This document shows, piece after piece, positions 30,019 through 54,411 of a DNA stretch of 64,000 bases. Below the pieces are notes generated by a model. It ran no database searches, was not told the DNA's origin, and saw only the letters and a program-made list of their open reading frames with translations. The stretch's first letter is position 1, and every line of letters starts with the position of its first letter. Source of the stretch: Gallionella sp. (GTDB taxonomy: Bacteria > Pseudomonadota > Gammaproteobacteria > Burkholderiales > Gallionellaceae); NCBI GenBank assembly GCA_028699065.1, contig JAQVVH010000003.1, forward strand, positions 62,001 to 126,000, read 5' to 3'. A program made the position numbers and the translations under genes.

Positions 30019-33000
30019 TTAGACTTGCCCACCAACGCCTTTGAACTTCTCAACGAAAGCAGCGATTTTCTGGAACACGCTTTGCTTTTTGGTTAGGTAT
30101 TGCGGATTTAACGGGCTCATCTTTGGAAGAACAGCATTCAGCTCCGTGCCACTATCACTGGCAAATTCCCGCTTCAGAGACGTGGCGATATAACGCTTGG
30201 CCGCTTCCACATTCAGGTTCTCGGCGCTGATCAGCGCTTGGGCCTCACGCTGCTGTTCCGCTTGGGCAAAGGTGAAGAAGGCATCAATCACAGTGGCTTT
30301 ATCGCCAAGCTGGTCCAGGTCGGTCTGATTGATGAAATCCACCAGCAGGCTCTCCTTGGCGCGGTTCCCCAGGCTGGCACGAATCACGCGACGCACTTCA
30401 TCGACCAGTTCTGCTTTGCTCCTGGTTTTTTTGTTGTGCTCAAAAATCAGCTCAAGAATGTAATCCAGGTTGATTTCTTGAGACTTCAGCAGATCCACCT
30501 CAAAGACCACGTCATCCCAGTCGATAGTTGACTTATTCTTCTCGTCGGAGTTTTTCTCCCGCCGCAGCCAGTCGCGTATATCGTTATAAGTCGAGCGGTA
30601 ATCCTGAATTTTACGTTCCGCAGGAATCTTGATCGATTGCAGCGCGCTCAAGTCCGCATCGCTCAAGTAATGCTTAGCCTTGAACGCCTCAACCACTACC
30701 GGGTCGCTCATGTCCATGCTTTGCAACGCCTTCAGGCTGGCAAACTCATCGTAGTTTTGCAGTACGTTCTCAACGCGCAAATACTCGCCAAACAGCTTGG
30801 CAAATGCCTTTTTGTCGGATTCTTTTTCAATGGCTGCGGGATCGGGGAAGCGCGCTTCCAGCTCCTGTACCACCTCTACAAAGCCACGCCGCGCCTCACC
30901 GGTGATCACATCGGTGAAGCCACCCATGTATTCCTTGTAGCTCTTTTCCAGCACCACGTTCTTGGTGTTTTTGTCACCGAACAGGGTAATGGCGTCGATA
31001 GTCGCCTGCTCCAGATCGCGGAAGGAGACGATGTTGCCAAAGGTCTTGGTGGCATCGTAAATGCGGTTGGTACGCGAAAACGCTTGCATCAAGCCGTGGT
31101 AGCGCAGGTTCTTATCCACAAACAAAGTGTTCAACGTGGGAGCATCGAAGCCGGTGAGGAACATGCCCACCACAATCAACAGGTCGATCTCCTGGGCCTT
31201 TACCTGCTTGGCCAGATCGCGGTAATAGTTCTGGAAGCCATCGCTATCCACACTGAAATTAGTCTTGAATAGCGCGTTGTAGTCTGCGATGGCCGCGCTT
31301 AAAAACTCCTTGGCGCTGCTGTTCATGGCCGACACATTAAAGCCCTCGTCCTGAATGTCGCCCACCGCATCCTGCTCCTCGTTGGCGGCAAACGAGAAGA
31401 TGGTGGCCACCCGCAACGGCTTGTCGCTGCCTTTCTGCAACTCCCGGAACGACTCGTAATACAGCTTGGCAGCATCTACGCTGCTGACAGCGAACATGGC
31501 GTTGAAGCCTTTATTGCCCGCTTGCAGGCGGTGGGTTTTTTGTCGGAAGTTATTCAAAATGTACTGCGAAATTTCCCGAATACGGTCGGGGTGCAACAAG
31601 GCTTGTTTGTTTTCCGCCGCGGTGAGCTTTTTCTCATCCCGCTCGGTTTCAATGGCTTTGAACTGCGGGTGCACATCGTTGTAGTCCACCTTGAACTTCA
31701 ACACCTTTTCATCACGAATCGCATCGGTGATGACATACGAATGCAACTCGCGGCCAAATACACTGGCGGTGGTTTCGGCGCCCAGCGCGTTTTCCGGGAA
31801 GATCGGCGTGCCGGTAAAACCAAACTGATAGAACTTTTTGAACTTTTTCTTCAGGTTTTTCTGTGCTTCACCGAATTGACTGCGGTGACATTCATCAAAA
31901 ATAAACACCACCTGCTTGCCGTAGATCGGTAAATCATTTTCACTTTTCATCAGGTTGTTCAGCTTCTGGATGGTGGTGACGATGATCTTGTTGTCGTCTT
32001 TATCCAGGTTGCGCTTAAGCCCGGCAGTGCTGTCCGAGCCATTCACGCTATCCGGCGAAAAGCGCTGGTACTCCTTCATGGTCTGGTAATCCAGATCCTT
32101 GCGGTCCACCACAAAAAACACCTTGTCGATGAAATCGAGCTCGGTCGCCAAGCGCGCCGCTTTGAAACTGGTCAGGGTTTTACCTGAACCAGTGGTGTGC
32201 CAGATAAAACCGCCGCTTTCCGCGTTGCTCCAGCGCTTTGCCTGCCATGCGCTTTTGATTTTCCACAAGATGCGCTCGGTGGCGGCGATCTGGTAAGGGC
32301 GCATCACCAGCAAAGTGTCGCTCACATCAAACACCGAATAATGCAGCAGCACATTGAGCAAGGTATTTTTCTGGAAGAAGGTAGCGGTGAAGTCTTTCAG
32401 GTCTTTGATTAGGCTGTTATCCGCCTTCGCCCAATTCATGGTGAAGTCAAAACTATTCTTGTTGCGCTGTGTGGTGTTGGCGAAATAACGGCAATCCGTA
32501 CCGTTGGAAATCACGAACAACTGCAAATACTTGAACAACGAATGCTCGCTGTTAAAACTCTCTTTGCTATAACGATGCACCTGATTAAAGGCTTCCCGAA
32601 TCGCCACGCCGCGCTTCTTCAGCTCCACCTGCACCAATGGCAGACCGTTGATCAGTATCGTGACGTCGTAGCGGTTGGCGTGGCTGCCGGTCTGCACAAA
32701 CTGCTTGATCACCTGCACCTTGTTGCGGGCGACGCTCTTCTTATCCAGAAGGTAAATGTTCTGGATACGCCCATCGTCAAAGACAAAATCATGAATGTAA
32801 TCGTCGTGAATCTTCCGGGTCTTCTCGACGATGCCATCGCTGGGCTTGTCCAGGTATGTTTCGACAAAACGCAGCCACTCACCATCGGAAAATTGCGTGT
32901 TATTCAGCGCCTGCAACGCTACGCGCACATTCGTCAACAGCTTCTCGGGCGTATTTAAATCGGGCAGATATTCATAGCCCTGATTCTGCAAATCCTGAAT

Positions 33001-33117
33001 GAATTCCCGCTCCAAATCGTATTCGCTTTGGTAGCTTTCGCTGACTTTCCATTCCTGGGTGTATTTATCCAGAACGATAAAGTTGTTCGATTCGGCGATG
33101 GTCTTGTAGTCAGTCAT
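30019..33117 (-). CDS. hsdR: Type I restriction enzyme, R subunit
   Basis: 1032 aa from ATG 33117, which overlaps the end of the BRO-type gene by 8 nt; codons upstream belong to that neighbour. HsdR translocates and cleaves unmodified DNA within the HsdR2M2S1 complex. The N-terminal endonuclease domain has the PD-(D/E)XK core Asp151 ... Glu165-Leu-Lys167 (QVELKKRG). The SF2 motor follows with Walker [10 protein letters not shown] (about 306-314), DECH box [12 protein letters not shown] (408-411), and motif VI-like [14 protein letters not shown]. All key residues are present, so it looks active. It is the last gene of a tight operon, and sequence is closest in style to the EcoR124-type (IC) family. 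Confidence 0.95.
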
Positions 33118-33961
33118 CTTTTCTACCCTTGGCCGGTGGCAATAAGTGGTTGGCATTTTGCCTGCTGACCACTTTCTTGCCGGTCTCTGCCTCCAGTTTT
33201 AGCCTCGCTTGCTTGGCAACACCGCCGCCGCGCTTGGCCACATCTTCATGCTCATCCATCGACTGCGGATTGACGACTTCCGAAATCTCCTTGGTGGATA
33301 ACTCAGCCAGCATATTGATGACCAGCTCTTTATTGCTCATGTTGTCGCGCAGGTTTTCTTTTTTCAGCCCTTTGTACTGCTTGTATTCCCGAGCGGATTT
33401 ACCGGCCCAGGTCTTGTAAATCACATCGGTTAAAAAAGCGAATTCCGCCCCTTCCTGCAAACCATGCTTTTTCCACTCGTCGGTCAGCTCTTTGCGGATC
33501 TCGATGCTCTTGAGCCGCTGGTTGATCCAGTTGTCTGTGTACCCCAGGCGCTTGTAGTCAAGCATGGCTTGCTCGATGCTGAGTTCAGGGTCTTGCAGCT
33601 GGTCCAGGCGCTGACTGCCTACTTCGGCCAGCCAGAGCTTGAAAGGTTCGGCTCGCTTGCTGGGGATGGACTGGATGAGCCGCAGGATTTGCTCGGTGTC
33701 GGCCACATCGGTCAGGTATTTTTTGCCGTCGGCGGCGGTCAATTTCAGTTGACTACAGTTTGTAGCCAACTGACTGCCTTCGTTTTTCAGGCGAACTTTG
33801 AGCACGCTCCAGTACTTGCGCGCCCGCGTGTAGTCGGGCTGATCGGTCAGCACTGCCACAACGTCGACCACCGAAAACCACCATTTCTCAGCTTCCGCAT
33901 CCCACTCGTTGCGAATCAGCTGCGACTCAAACAGTTTGACTTTGCTGTCCTTATCGCTCAT
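33110..33961 (-). CDS. BRO-N / antirepressor-like protein inside the hsd operon
   Basis: 283 aa. The N-terminal about 110 residues ([25 protein letters not shown], then [13 protein letters not shown] and [18 protein letters not shown]) resemble the BRO-N domain of phage antirepressors and of DinD, a DNA-damage-inducible protein. The middle ([45 protein letters not shown]) and [26 protein letters not shown] resemble versions found with restriction systems. The C-terminus is basic. It overlaps hsdS by 4 nt (ATGA) and hsdR by 8 nt, so it is translated with the enzyme subunits. Its role is unknown: regulation of restriction, or an accessory DNA-binding subunit, are inferences. Confidence 0.8.
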
Positions 33962-35175
33962 GCCATCACCTCTTGCGGTTTGGGAAAGGTCAGCAGCAAA
34001 TCGCGGTAGTGCTCGTATTGCTTCTGGCGCAGTTCGATTTCGCGGGGCAAGCCTTCGGTGAGGGAGTTCGTCAGCGCATCGAATTTATCGAGGATGGCGA
34101 CGATGCGGGCTTGTTCAGCGAGGGATTTAACTGGATCGTTTGCGAACGGAATAGGTACTTGCAAATTTTTAACAATCTGCGCATTTATGTTTGTTTGCGA
34201 CCCAGTTCCTAGCGACTTGATGTATTCGTACTGACTCGTCAAGAAATGAAATACATAACTATAGTCAGCAACTTTTTCATCAAGGTTTATGTTGGCACAA
34301 GCTTGATTTGTGGTCATTGGAATCTTATTGATTCCGATTTTTCCAACAGTTGCACCATACATCGCGACGATTACGCAGTTTGCTGGTATCCATTTCGCAC
34401 TGGAATTTTTTACACCAGCTTCAGTAATTTTTATTTCGGTGTCCCATATATCGCGGAAATCTACTTCCTGGGTTCTCAACCATGGAATATCGCCATCGTA
34501 ATACTCCGACACACTAGTCGAAGGTGTTCCGCCAGACGAAATCTTTTGGGAGATTTCGTCCAATGTCTTCCACTCCACCACCCCATCTTCAAAACTAAAC
34601 AACTGGTCACGGTAGTGCTTGTATTGTTTTTTGCGGGTGGTCAGCTCGGCAGTCAGCTCGGCAGTCAGCTCGGTGAAGGCGTCCAGTATGCGGGCGATTT
34701 CGGCTTGGATTTCAAGCGATTTTTTGGGGTTGTCTGGGCAGGGGATGGGGACTTGCAACTCTTTCAAGTTGCCTGCGTTCAAAGCGGGGATTCCGTCATA
34801 CGTGCAAAGAGACTGAATTTCGGGCTGCATTTCAAGCAGCAAGTGATAAAGGTATCTCGTGCTAACTAGCTGAACGTTTTTGATCGTGACGGAATAATTC
34901 AGATTACCTCGAAAATATTTGCCGGGCTGCCAAGTCACTGAACCAACCCCCGCACCACGTGACGTTATCCCAATTGGGTCGTTATCAGTGTTCCAGTCAT
35001 CGATAAATCCAAGCGGATCACGCCCACTATTAATTACGGGATATTCGCCAGGGTTGGCCGAAATCATTTGCTTGTTTACTGACTGGCCCGTTTTGATCGA
35101 GGTAACTTCGCCCAGAGGTTTCCACTCCACACTCGTCCCATCCAGCAGCTTGTTCAAAAAGTCCACGCCGCTCAT
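33958..35175 (-). CDS. hsdS: Type I restriction-modification specificity subunit
   Basis: 405 aa. HsdS holds two target-recognition domains: TRD1 (about 15-160, [20 protein letters not shown]) and TRD2 (about 200-350, [19 protein letters not shown]). They are separated by conserved helical spacers ending in the similar motifs [14 protein letters not shown] (about 182-195) and [15 protein letters not shown] (near the C-terminus). The central spacer carries TAEL-TAEL (171-178) coded by a 12-bp tandem repeat. TRD2, and less so TRD1, is visibly AT-richer than hsdM, as expected for exchanged recognition cassettes. Target sequence cannot be read from this. ATG overlaps hsdM by 4 nt. Confidence 0.94.
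34642..34677 (-). repeat. 12-bp in-frame repeat in the hsdS spacer (TAEL)
   Basis: CAGCTCGGCAGT occurs twice in tandem on the plus strand (34642-34653, 34654-34665), followed by a third partial copy (CAGCTCGGT, 34666-34674). On the coding strand each unit encodes Thr-Ala-Glu-Leu. In the EcoR124 family, gain or loss of one such 4-residue unit in the same place changes the spacing between the two half-sites by one base. Confidence 0.9.
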
Positions 35176-36743
35176 GCCTCTTGCTCCTCGCCTTCAATCT
35201 CGGCCACGATGGCGTCGATGTCTTTGCGCAGCTGGTCGATCTTGGCGACGGTGGTTTTGAGCTGGGCGTTGAGCTGGGCAATGTCCACCACTTCGCGGGT
35301 GTCTTTGGCCTCCACGTAGCTGCTGACGGACAGGTTGTAGTCGTTGGCGGCAATCTCGGCATGGCTGACCGAGCGGGCGAAGTGGTCCACGTTGGCCTTG
35401 TTGTCGAACACGGCCATGATTTGGTCGATGTGTTCATCCAGCAGCGTGTTGTTGTTGGTTTCTTTTTTGAACAGGGCGCTGGCATCGATGAACTGGGTGG
35501 TGGTGTCGGCCTTGTGTTTGGACAGCACCAGAATGGTCACGGCAATGGTGGTGCCGAAGAACAGGTTGGGCGCCAGCGAGATGACGGTTTCCACATGGTT
35601 GCTGTCCACCAGGTATTGGCGGATTTTTTGCTCCGCACCGCCCCGGTAAAAGATGCCCGGAAAGCAAACAATTGCAGCGCGGCCCTTGCTGGAGAGGTAG
35701 CTGAGCGCGTGCAGCACAAAGGCAAAGTCGGCCTTGCTCTTGGGGGCCAGCACGCCAGCAGGGGCAAAGCGGTCGTCGTTGATGAGGGTGGGGTCGTCGC
35801 TGCCGATCCACTTCACCGAATACGGCGGGTTGGAGACGATGGCGTCAAACGGTTTGTCGTCACCAAAGTGCGGGTCAATCAGCGTGTCGCCCAGCTGGAT
35901 GTTGAATTTGTCGTAGTTGACGTTGTGCAAGAACATGTTCATGCGCGCCAAGTTGTACGTGGTGTGGTTCAGCTCTTGCCCCCAAAAACCGTCTTGAATC
36001 AAATGCTGGTCAAAGTGTTTTTTGGCTTGCAGCAGCAGAGAGCCGGAGCCGCAGGCGGGGTCGTAAATCTTGTTGACGCTGGTTTGTTTGTGCATGGCCA
36101 GCTGGGCGATCAGCTTGGACACATGCTGGGGCGTGAAGAACTCACCGCCCGATTTGCCCGCGTTGGCGGCGTAGTTGGAAATCAGGAATTCGTAGGCGTC
36201 GCCAAACAGGTCGATTTGGTTGGTTTCGAAATCGCTGCCGCCAAAGTCGCCAAAATCCAGCTCGGCCACGCCTTTGAGCACGGCGGCCAAGCGGGTGTTT
36301 TTGTCTTTGACGGTGTTGCCCAAGCGGTTGCTGGTGGTGTCAAAGTCGGCAAACAGACCTTTGATGTCTTTTTCGGACGGATAACCATTGGCTGAGCTTT
36401 CAATGGCGGCAAAGATAGCGGCTAAATCGGTGTTTAAGCTTTCGTTGGTGTTGGCACTGGCAACCACTTTGGCAAACAGCTGACTGGGATAAATGAAATA
36501 GCCCTTGGTCTTGATGGCATCGTCTTTGATGTCTGCGGTGATCACGCTATCCGCCAGCTCTGCGTAGTGGATGCTGTCGTCACCCGCTTCGATGTAGCTG
36601 GCAAAGTTTTCGCTAATGAAGCGGTAGAACAAGGTGCCCAGCACGTACTGCTTGAAGTCCCAACCGTCCACGGCGCCCCGCACATCGTTAGCGATCTGCC
36701 AGATTTGGCGCTGCAGTGCGGCGCGTTGTTGGGTGCTGGTCAT
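35172..36743 (-). CDS. hsdM: Type I restriction-modification DNA methyltransferase subunit
   Basis: 523 aa, N6-adenine methyltransferase of the M2S1 complex. The N-terminal helical domain (about 10-150, [33 protein letters not shown]) is followed by the catalytic domain: [14 protein letters not shown] (200-212), SAM motif [13 protein letters not shown] (about 227-238) and catalytic motif [13 protein letters not shown] (NPPY 305-308). All are intact. It is the first gene of hsdM-hsdS-BRO-hsdR. TAGGA lies properly before the ATG. hsdS overlaps by 4 nt. Confidence 0.96.
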
Positions 36744-37030
36744 TCTGTCATTCCTATTTTGATGTGTTATTACAAACGAGAGCCGCTTTAAATTTTTTGA
36801 ACACTATACCTTGGAAGGAAGTCATTGTCCGTACCGGCTTGATGCCTAAGCCGGGCTCGAATTAGGCCCGTTTTGCAATTGTGCAAGGTGTCGGATGCAA
36901 CCTGGCCGGCGCTGAACTATTACAATTGGTCATCCAATGGGGGTTGATACCGGCTGAGCGGATATTTTTGGATAATTTTATTAAAATCAGTGTGATATTG
37001 TGTTTCTTGAGGTGGGATGAGAAGGGCTTC
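36744..37030. other. hsdM upstream region up to tRNA-Ser
   Basis: 287 bp without a convincing gene. On the minus strand CGGACA/TATAGT (18-bp spacing; TATAGT complement at 36803-36808) is a possible hsdM promoter. Two small hairpins follow one another further upstream: CCGGCTT/AAGCCGG (36834-36854) and CGGGC/GCCCG (36852-36870, followed by TTTT on the plus strand). An AT-rich stretch (about 36965-37005) separates this from the tRNA. A tRNA terminator is not obvious. Confidence 0.45.
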
Positions 37031-37121
37031 TGGCGGAAGCGGTGAGATTCGAACTCACGGAGGGGTATAAGCCCTCGGCGGTTTTCAAGACCGCTGCCTT
37101 CAACCACTCGGCCACGCTTCC
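37031..37121 (-). tRNA. tRNA-Ser(UGA)
   Basis: 91-nt class II tRNA including encoded CCA (complement 37031-37033). The acceptor stem GGAAGCG/CGCTTCC is complete, with discriminator G, the D-arm contains GCCGAGTGGTTGAAGGC, the anticodon loop CTTGAAA gives anticodon UGA, a long variable arm (CCGAGGGCTTATACCCCTCCG) is present as needed for serine tRNAs, and the T-arm has GTTCGAATC. It decodes UCA and other UCN codons. Its 5' half is duplicated twice upstream in a 140-bp tandem repeat. Confidence 0.96.
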
Positions 37122-37224
37122 ATAAGAGGGTGCTGCATTTTGCCACGACGGCGGTTTTAGTTCCGACGTCACATTGGCTGGTGCCAATATGAGTCTTCAC
37201 TGCCACTGCCGCTGCGCGTGGTGG

Positions 37225-37261
37225 TCAAGACCGCTGCCTTCAACCACTCGGCCACGCTTCC
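37225..37261 (-). pseudogene. Truncated tRNA-Ser copy (5' half), second copy
   Basis: 37 nt identical to the 5' part of tRNA-Ser(UGA), from the first base of the acceptor stem to the last anticodon base. There is no 3' half, so no functional tRNA can form. The 3' junction on the minus strand is directly followed by repeat flank (CCACCACGCGCAGCGG). Confidence 0.9.
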
Positions 37262-37364
37262 ATAAGAGGGTGCTGCATTTTGCCACGACGGCGGTTTTAG
37301 TTCCGACGTCACATTGGCTGGTGCCAATATGAGTCTTCACTGCCACTGCCGCTGCGCGTGGTGG

Positions 37365-37401
37365 TCAAGACCGCTGCCTTCAACCACTCGGCCACGCTTC
37401 C
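37365..37401 (-). pseudogene. Truncated tRNA-Ser copy (5' half), third copy
   Basis: A further 37-nt copy of the tRNA-Ser 5' half, identical to the other two. Unlike the other copies its own upstream flank is different DNA (CATTTTTTGGAGGCGCGC on the plus strand), which contains the best promoter match of the array, so this copy probably marks the ancestral 5' end of the tRNA gene. Confidence 0.88.
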
Positions 37402-37418
37402 ATTTTTTGGAGGCGCGC

Positions 37419-37447
37419 ATTTTGACTGAAGCGGGGCGGGGTGTCCA
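37419..37447 (-). promoter_or_regulatory. Probable original tRNA-Ser promoter
   Basis: On the minus strand TGGACA (complement 37442-37447) is 17 bp from CAAAAT (complement 37419-37424), followed by GCGCGCC. It is directed at the third 5'-half copy and lies about 300 bp before the intact tRNA. It overlaps the last codon of queD and its stop region. Confidence 0.5.
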
Positions 37448-37448
37448 G

Positions 37449-37892
37449 CTAGGCGCGTACGCAGTCGGCCCAGTTGTTGGGGGTTTCGTACAGCCGGACG
37501 CGTTCCAGTCGCAGGTTGTTGCCGTAGGTGTCGCGATAAGCGCTGTCGAGCAGTTTGAAGGCAGTTTGCGCGAGGTGCTCGGCGGTGGGGACGACGTCAA
37601 GGATGACGGTTTTGTGGCCCGGCAGGCTGTTGAGGAAGTCGCAAACGGTGTGGTCGCCGCGATAAACAAGGAAGGCGTGATCCCAGGCGTCGACGACGGT
37701 GATCTGCGCGATACGTTTGACGTCGGTGAAGTCCATGACCATGCCTTGTTCGGATTGGCCTTCGGTGGTGATGATGTCGCCGGAAAGGGTGATTTCGATG
37801 GCGTAGCGGTGGCCGTGCAGGTGTTTGCACTGGCTGTTGTGGTTGGGGATGCGGTGTCCGGCATCAAATTCCAGGCGGCGGGTGACGAGCAT
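37449..37892 (-). CDS. queD: 6-carboxytetrahydropterin synthase QueD-like
   Basis: 147 aa from ATG 37892 (a TTG at 37907 would add five). 6-pyruvoyl-tetrahydropterin synthase fold; in bacteria usually QueD, second step to queuosine/7-deazaguanine. Zinc histidines are visible in FDAGHRIPNHNSQCKHLHGHRY; QGMVMDFTDVKRI and the catalytic DAWDHAFLV segment follow, with the Glu in RVRLYETPNNWADC. The active-site Cys in QCKHLHGH is present. It starts 29 nt after the Mth938-domain gene. Pterin synthesis rather than queuosine cannot be excluded. Confidence 0.88.
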   Translation of the reverse strand: MLVTRRLEFDAGHRIPNHNSQCKHLHGHRYAIEITLSGDIITTEGQSEQGMVMDFTDVKRIAQITVVDAWDHAFLVYRGDHTVCDFLNSLPGHKTVILDVVPTAEHLAQTAFKLLDSAYRDTYGNNLRLERVRLYETPNNWADCVRA

Positions 37893-54213: not shown

Positions 54214-54411
54214 TTACTTGGTTTCGGCAGCAGGTGCAGCAGCAGCGTCAGCAGCAGGTGCAGCAGCTTCAGTTGCGGAAGCAGCAGGTGCAGCAGCTTC
54301 AGTTGCAACAGGAGCAGCAGGAGCTTCAGCAGCAGGAGCAGCTTCTTCCTTGGCGCCACAAGCAGTCAGAGCCAGAGCCAGCAGGGCAGCGATCAGAGCA
54401 GAGTGTTTCAT
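54214..54411 (-). CDS. Small Ala/Pro-rich lipoprotein
   Basis: 65 aa. Lipoprotein signal MKHSALIAALLALALTACGA with lipobox LTAC (Cys18); the mature part is almost only Ala, Pro, Glu, Thr (EEAAPAAEAPAAPVATEAAA and so on) and contains a direct repeat (period 30 bp). Related tiny Ala-rich lipoproteins are common in betaproteobacteria without known function. A good ribosome binding site (GAGGA) and a TGCTACAAT extended -10 support expression. The opposite strand is also open but Gln-rich and non-coding looking. Confidence 0.75.
   Translation of the reverse strand: MKHSALIAALLALALTACGAKEEAAPAAEAPAAPVATEAAAPAASATEAAAPAADAAAAPAAETK
54251..54306 (-). repeat. 26-bp direct repeat within the lipoprotein gene
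   Basis: GCAGCAGGTGCAGCAGCTTC plus AGTTGC occurs at 54251-54276 and again at 54281-54306 (period 30). It codes for the ATEAAAPAAS/ATEAAAPAAD repeats. Slippage-prone GCA-rich DNA, so length may vary among strains. Confidence 0.85.

Follow-up and report, generated by a model that had tools for sequence, protein, structure and literature searches.

How does a bacterium come to carry three copies of the 5' half of its tRNA-Ser(UGA) gene, one of them in an intact tRNA that is the only tRNA-Ser(UGA) found in the genome? This question is raised by the 64,000-bp stretch of Gallionella sp. DNA analysed here (the window), in which Tandem Repeats Finder reports a 140-bp period at positions 37085–37403, present in 2.3 copies with 100% matches and no indels; this result and the three 5'-half copies in the sequence confirm the perfect 140-bp tandem repeat described in the first-pass annotation. 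On our best reading the insert involved, which we call E, is a small hairpin element that is non-autonomous and whose insertions in genes, where they survive, restore the gene end.

Organization of the tRNA-Ser(UGA) locus

All of the features of the locus lie on the reverse strand. ARAGORN places the intact tRNA-Ser(UGA) at 37031–37121; its 5' half (37086–37121) and 3' part (37031–37085) are delimited by the sequence and by the split point of other loci (below). Read in the direction of the tRNA, the locus begins with a promoter-like sequence and a 5' half (37366–37401), followed by two units that each consist of a 67-nt E, 10 nt of the tRNA 3' part (the stub), a 27-nt spacer and a 36-nt 5' half, the last 5' half being that of the intact tRNA. 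In the outer unit E occupies 37299–37365, the stub 37289–37298, the spacer 37262–37288 and the middle copy of the 5' half 37226–37261 (the stub is placed by the sequence and comparison of unit rows, the others by the sequence and the tandem-repeat call). In the inner unit E occupies 37159–37225 (alignment and unit-row comparison), the stub AAAACCGCCG 37149–37158 (sequence and unit-row comparison) and the spacer 37122–37148 (sequence and comparison with leaders). The stub is the beginning of the tRNA 3' part, namely the 3' strand of the anticodon stem, and the inner spacer holds CAAAATGC, which is found in the ancestral leader too. Both units have the same 140-bp sequence (the copy number being as assembled), and our core model of E (R2, below) matches the inner copy at 37155–37205 (G000:C7:99155–99205) and the outer one at 37295–37345 (G000:C7:99295–99345). 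E breaks the anticodon loop at CTTG|AAAA, and the unit re-creates a whole tRNA directly downstream of the broken one.

The geometry previously drawn for this array is borne out by the sequence. The 5' half is indeed duplicated, but the break had been put after anticodon base 36 (a 37-nt half) and really falls one base earlier in the gene, after nt 36. Base 37 (A) is common by chance, because the insert here starts with A; since inserts elsewhere start with G (CTTG|GCGC...), the shared break follows the second anticodon base, and the split lies at nt 36 in 58/58 serine unit rows. What had been missed is the makeup of the 103-bp flank attributed to each half: it is a structured insert, an anticodon-stem 3'-strand stub and a spacer. 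The assignment of the best promoter to the outermost copy is supported; TGGACA-N17-CAAAAT (37419–37447, reverse strand) is the only promoter-like site found in 36950–37520. In G027 and G008, which belong to the same genus, a matching promoter directly precedes an undisturbed tRNA; the outermost 5' half is therefore the ancestral one and keeps the ancestral promoter, and the 280 bp that now separate the intact tRNA from its original promoter, a distance already recognized, correspond to an insertion at CTTG|AAAA.

Among the three origins offered in the first-pass annotation, serial insertion of a tiny unit comes nearest. An assembly error is not supported, because independent assemblies, among them a 2.56-Mb contig of G056, show the same architecture with E sequences that differ. 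Nor is unequal exchange between two tRNA-Ser loci: a second locus of this kind was not found, and tRNA-Phe and coding genes show the pattern as well. A second locus with the same flank had been suggested as a check on simple duplication; a search of the genome gave two matches, one to the array itself and one partial, 52 bases long, that covers the tRNA 5' part, and therefore no such locus.

Beside the 3' end of the tRNA lies what appears by eye to be a type I restriction-modification operon (30019–36743), of which hsdM (35172–36743) is confirmed by NCBIfam and the rest was named by eye. Tandem Repeats Finder also reports an imperfect tandem repeat of AGCAGC-rich units in the window at 54227–54345.

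Similar insertions in other tRNA genes

The same architecture, with diverged E sequences, is present at tRNA-Ser(UGA) in other genera and also at tRNA-Phe, tRNA-Ser(GGA) and tRNA-Ser(CGA) genes. A pattern composed of the 5' half, a gap and AAAAC has matches in 17 of 399 genomes of the order; by the printed matches, ten of these are split copies and seven are ordinary tRNAs. A pattern-based scan of named genomes gave 56 stretches, at least 27 of which have E behind a serine-tRNA 5' half, and the E-bearing records are titled Thiobacillus, Rhodocyclaceae, Hydrogenophilaceae, Burkholderiales and others. Some of the 56 were rejected, among the matches listed, as chance matches in unrelated genes (for example in Halomonas, Bacillus and Planctomycetota records). 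Genome G056, one of the ten with split copies, has three such units that match the 5'-half pattern and a fourth, with another insert, further out.

Unit rows were extracted by a script from all fetched loci after removal of identical stretches, with stubs shorter than 6 nt and left matches shorter than 5 nt discarded; this gave 59 rows from 47 loci (56 Ser(UGA) and one each of Phe, Ser(GGA) and Ser(CGA)). The junction is at G|AAA of the anticodon loop in all 59. The intact tRNA lies downstream in 57 rows and upstream in two (L107 and L133), and the stub is 9–13 nt long in 55 of the 57 rows with a downstream intact tRNA and 6 or 7 nt in the other two. In many rows the unit's 5' half is identical to the host's own tRNA at 36/36 positions. 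The E core is present at the tRNA-Ser locus in three of the 33 loci given (the window's own, G020 and G032), likewise in G372 and G285 of the same genus, and similar E sequences occur in the related genomes G082, G409 and G126. Other records contain arrays of three to five units (L091, L003, L119), and different units are mixed inside single arrays at L003, L053 and L074. At the tRNA-Phe gene of the window's genome (L164, G000:C5:722300–723500) a 5' half that runs to TTG is followed by E, AAAATCCTTGTG, a spacer and the intact tRNA.

In the L053 and L074 arrays the stub after E fits the tRNA half that follows and not the one before it, as though recombination between alleles had taken place. 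The shortest insert (L146, G160:C1:314037–314093) is 35 nt long and has its core reduced to TAGC-GAA-GCTA, a type of hairpin known for its high stability in DNA. Loci L096 and L185 show a tRNA cluster with a serine tRNA-like remnant, which has E in its anticodon loop, plus a 3' half.

Structure of the insert

Alignments A1 (16) and A2 (20) were made from 39 non-redundant inserts (L066, L084 and L108 were left out as not tRNA). Sixteen short-form inserts fold into the anticodon stem, a first hairpin, a short stem (for example UAGU/ACUA or GGC/GCC), a 3x3 GNA/GNA internal loop and a second hairpin. Both sides vary in 14 of the 22 pairs of the 16-insert alignment, which has a covariation score of 0.356 versus 0.135 for shuffled alignments (0/500 as high) and at most 0.102 when the structure is slid. 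A third alignment (A3) holds 45 of the 49 listed cores, the core being 46 positions long; its covariation score is 0.443 versus 0.206 shuffled (0/500) and at most 0.085 when slid, six of its 11 pairs vary on both sides, and a measure of further pair types is not above shuffles (465/500). The structures were drawn from members of the tested alignments, which favours them somewhat. The core structure of E is supported by covariation. A known RNA family was rejected: in the 17 loci given, the Rfam gathering score was reached by tRNA alone, and no Rfam family was found for E.

Dispersed copies and coding-gene ends

Copies of E are also found outside tRNA genes. With model R1, matches at E-value ≤ 0.001 were obtained for 75 of 399 genomes of the order, in a scan whose filters lose weak ones. 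Of 18 chosen genomes, 11 have 3–45 matches to the core model R2 (E-value ≤ 0.1); the remaining seven, which include G001 and G031 of the same genus, have none. The window's genome has five core matches in three places, the tRNA-Ser gene, the tRNA-Phe gene and the 3' end of hisC, and all three are of the duplicated type. E is a short palindromic repeat with many dispersed copies and no gene of its own. A unit of about 280 bp in G056 that carries the core has the ends GGAAACGCTGAA/TTCAGCGTTTCC and is present at four sites at 96–98% identity and partly at a fifth; at L205–L208 (G056:C1) these ends are terminal inverted repeats, and L205 and L206 have no Rfam match. Some E copies in G355 (L151–L155) are seemingly nested in another E, at its second-hairpin loop.

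At hisC (an NCBIfam name) the gene reads through the copied end and stops, and E and then the apparent old end follow. Among ten same-genus genomes read at the hisC-hisB junction, four have units (two in G000, three in G022, one each in G005 and G006), G003 has a probable remnant, and G007, G018 and G013 are empty. The units at the hisC 3' end (L204 in G000:C5, L272, L274, L278 and L277), in one to three copies, replace the protein's C-terminal residues, and a different inverted repeat (GTAGCGTGCGCTGTGCGCAC...) is present at the junction in G017 and G008 (L273, L276). The end of metK in G419 (L183) and of an aminotransferase gene in G372 (L219) have a layout like that of hisC; both names come from cut fragments that score below curated cut-offs. 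The start of radC in G372 (L162) is alike by eye, yet not above shuffles.

Sixty-one non-tRNA cores, from loci taken from the top search matches and not at random, were tested for a direct repeat between their flanks (two further cores were skipped for N). Thirteen of these, at six loci (L183, L165, L219, L212, L218 and L169), have one above all 200 shuffles; L212 and L218 consist of E copies in tandem, and the match at L169 is gapped and probably unrelated. No flanking duplication above shuffles is seen for the remaining 48 cores. The flanks of 40 non-tRNA copies do not pair clearly better than permuted ones (24/300 as good), and a general targeting of hairpin loops was therefore rejected; at 18 tRNA sites permuted partners are equally good in 216/300, as expected of like sequences.

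Proposed coupling of insertion and duplication

We infer that E is mobile and that its insertion and the duplication are simultaneous. E would enter at G|AA, here in the anticodon loop of tRNA-Ser(UGA), and would be joined into one DNA strand during replication; the folded E hairpin might then cause the strand being copied out to prime again farther upstream, on the template that lacks E, and one E-bearing and one intact copy would result. In tRNA genes the hairpin would be closed by the anticodon stem, which under this proposal explains the stub of 9–13 nt, and hairpin-driven re-priming during insertion, itself a guess, fits the stub length best. In essential genes only those insertion events that leave an intact copy would survive, and later recombination between the direct repeats could multiply the unit or remove it scarlessly. 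Taken as a whole, the model of a hairpin-forming interspersed repeat that enters G|AA, with insertion and re-priming duplication, seems to us evenly balanced between right and wrong. A further possibility, which we put forward tentatively and with some doubt, is that E belongs to a new class of mobile hairpins whose insertion is mechanistically coupled to the copying of a piece of the target gene, which can enter essential genes, at anticodon loops and coding ends, and leave them working, and whose folded form in tRNA genes includes the anticodon stem.

The model is supported by the empty sites at tRNA-Ser and hisC in the same genus, the patchy dispersal, the covariation and the constant junction and stub, as well as by the hisC units in four of ten same-genus genomes, the like layouts at the metK and aminotransferase ends and the near-identical core-bearing 280-bp copies at four sites in G056. 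Other results count against it. A strand bias is expected of single-strand insertion at forks, and with the skew read from 20 windows per genome none is significant (6/20, p 0.12, in G372; 14/26, p 0.85, in G056). The spacers resemble the outer leaders over 40 loci (mean score 3.6 versus -2.3 permuted, 0/2000), but the top scores belong for the most part to arrays in which the outer copy is apparently itself a unit, and the likeness is not seen in many single-unit loci. In-place duplication alone does not explain the stubs of L053 and L074, the flanks of non-tRNA copies do not pair above permutation, no enzyme for E in the form of a shared Y1 transposase or reverse transcriptase turned up in the genomes searched, and no fresh insertion between strains was seen.

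Insertion and duplication could instead be separate events, E inserting at any G|AA and only cells already duplicated at the gene end surviving in needed genes. Tandem duplications are common in bacteria, and the 48 of 61 tested intergenic cores that lack a flanking duplication above shuffles fit this reading; however, the duplication border is 9–13 nt from E in 55/57 tRNA rows, and this speaks against it because independent duplications should have scattered borders, so that we consider it unlikely. We find it harder to believe in an integron-like cassette, a circular unit of E, stub, spacer and 5' half that recombines site-specifically at the anticodon stem-loop, and give equally little weight to the detailed form in which E and both anticodon-stem strands make up the folded attachment site and a bare anticodon hairpin is the target. 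The tandem units with a single sharp junction, the heterogeneous units within one array (L003, L053, L074) and the folded site with its covariation would all suit it, but copies are dispersed outside such hairpins, with flanks that do not pair above permutation, the 5' halves resemble the host's own tRNA (36/36 in many rows) and do not suggest import, and attC boxes were not seen by eye.

An RNA route, in which a transcript from the leader to past E is reverse-transcribed and recombines with the gene, the stub being an exonuclease-trimmed remainder at the base of the hairpin, would account for a stub length that matches the anticodon stem plus 1–5 nt and for the spacer and 5' half, which may be like a transcript start; it appears very unlikely, as the reverse transcriptase domain RVT_1 is missing from six E-bearing genomes (G372, G107, G255, G183, G056 and G250) and 3' gene ends are duplicated too. 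The array might also be a selected regulatory tRNA leader, E and the half tRNAs acting in the precursor RNA and mobility being minor. Strong covariation, the similar E sequences in G082, G409 and G126 and the identity of the 5' halves in many rows fit such a role, but the patchy presence, varying copy number and copies outside tRNA genes make it highly improbable. Finally, the second unit of the window's genome could be an assembly artefact added to one real unit, given that both units are identical over 140 bp and the copy number rests on assembly; arrays of three to five units in other records (L091, L003, L119) leave this hardly any credence, and at least one unit is required anyway to explain E here.

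Helper functions and relationship to known elements

Y1_Tnp (PF01797) is absent from the E-bearing genomes G000, G372, G285 and G056 and present in some E-free ones (G001, G031, G343 and G045). Twelve fetched Y1 loci, some of which carry repeats other than E, contained no convincing E when searched with R1 (four weak matches, best E-value 0.0029, 19.7 bits), and a RAYT/REP system was rejected on these grounds. A retroelement was rejected on the six genomes that lack RVT_1, which has two matches in G000. Carriage by phages or plasmids was rejected as well, on limited queries that diverged copies could escape: two patterns gave 0 matches in viral_contigs, and one 86-bp query gave no match in plasmids and phages. 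No integrase or cargo lies inside the 140-bp unit, which is made up solely of E, stub, spacer and 5' half.

REP/BIME elements are short hairpins dispersed in bacterial chromosomes and mobilised by RAYT (Y1) transposases; E is likewise a dispersed short hairpin, but Y1_Tnp is absent from the four E-bearing genomes. Integron cassette arrays have tandem units with a folded imperfect hairpin (attC) and cargo genes, and the E array has short tandem units that each hold a folded imperfect hairpin; unlike integrons, it shows no attC boxes by eye, its 140-bp unit has no cargo gene, and E also occurs outside arrays. Genomic islands in tRNA genes use a tyrosine integrase and duplicate the tRNA 3' end. 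As with these islands, the insert breaks the tRNA in its anticodon loop and comes with a copy that makes the gene whole again; unlike them, E is accompanied by a duplicated 5' half rather than a 3' end, with neither integrase nor cargo in the unit. Rickettsia palindromic elements (RPEs) are also located inside genes. Like E they are short, palindromic, found by profiles and present in many copies per genome, and RPE-6 repeats flank an inversion in R. africae (PMC2694212). E differs from them in sequence and host group, and the passages covered mention no duplicated gene end (PMC2694212). Hairpin elements of mitochondria include single and double hairpin repeats that are potentially mobile, with no enzyme named; they are organelle DNA, and the passages covered do not speak of a copy that restores a split gene, as E has (PMC2800124). 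In those parts of the open-access literature that our search covered, no description of E was found.

E resembles small hairpin repeats in kind, its gene-preserving insertion pattern is unusual, and the feature is recurrent. Small hairpin repeats are common in bacteria, some of them without an enzyme of their own; gene insertions of E leave a record, the 9–13 nt stub and the duplicated gene end, that constrains the mechanism of spread. They suggest a route into a coding sequence, or into a tRNA gene present in one copy, that does not kill the host, and E explains repeated tRNA halves that could otherwise be mistaken for errors.

Within the same genus, reversed E-like cores (L032–L036) lie just upstream of a gene that starts MKFRFP, which we take to be decarboxylase-like, and beside these cores there is an apparent copy of the first 15 bases of that gene.
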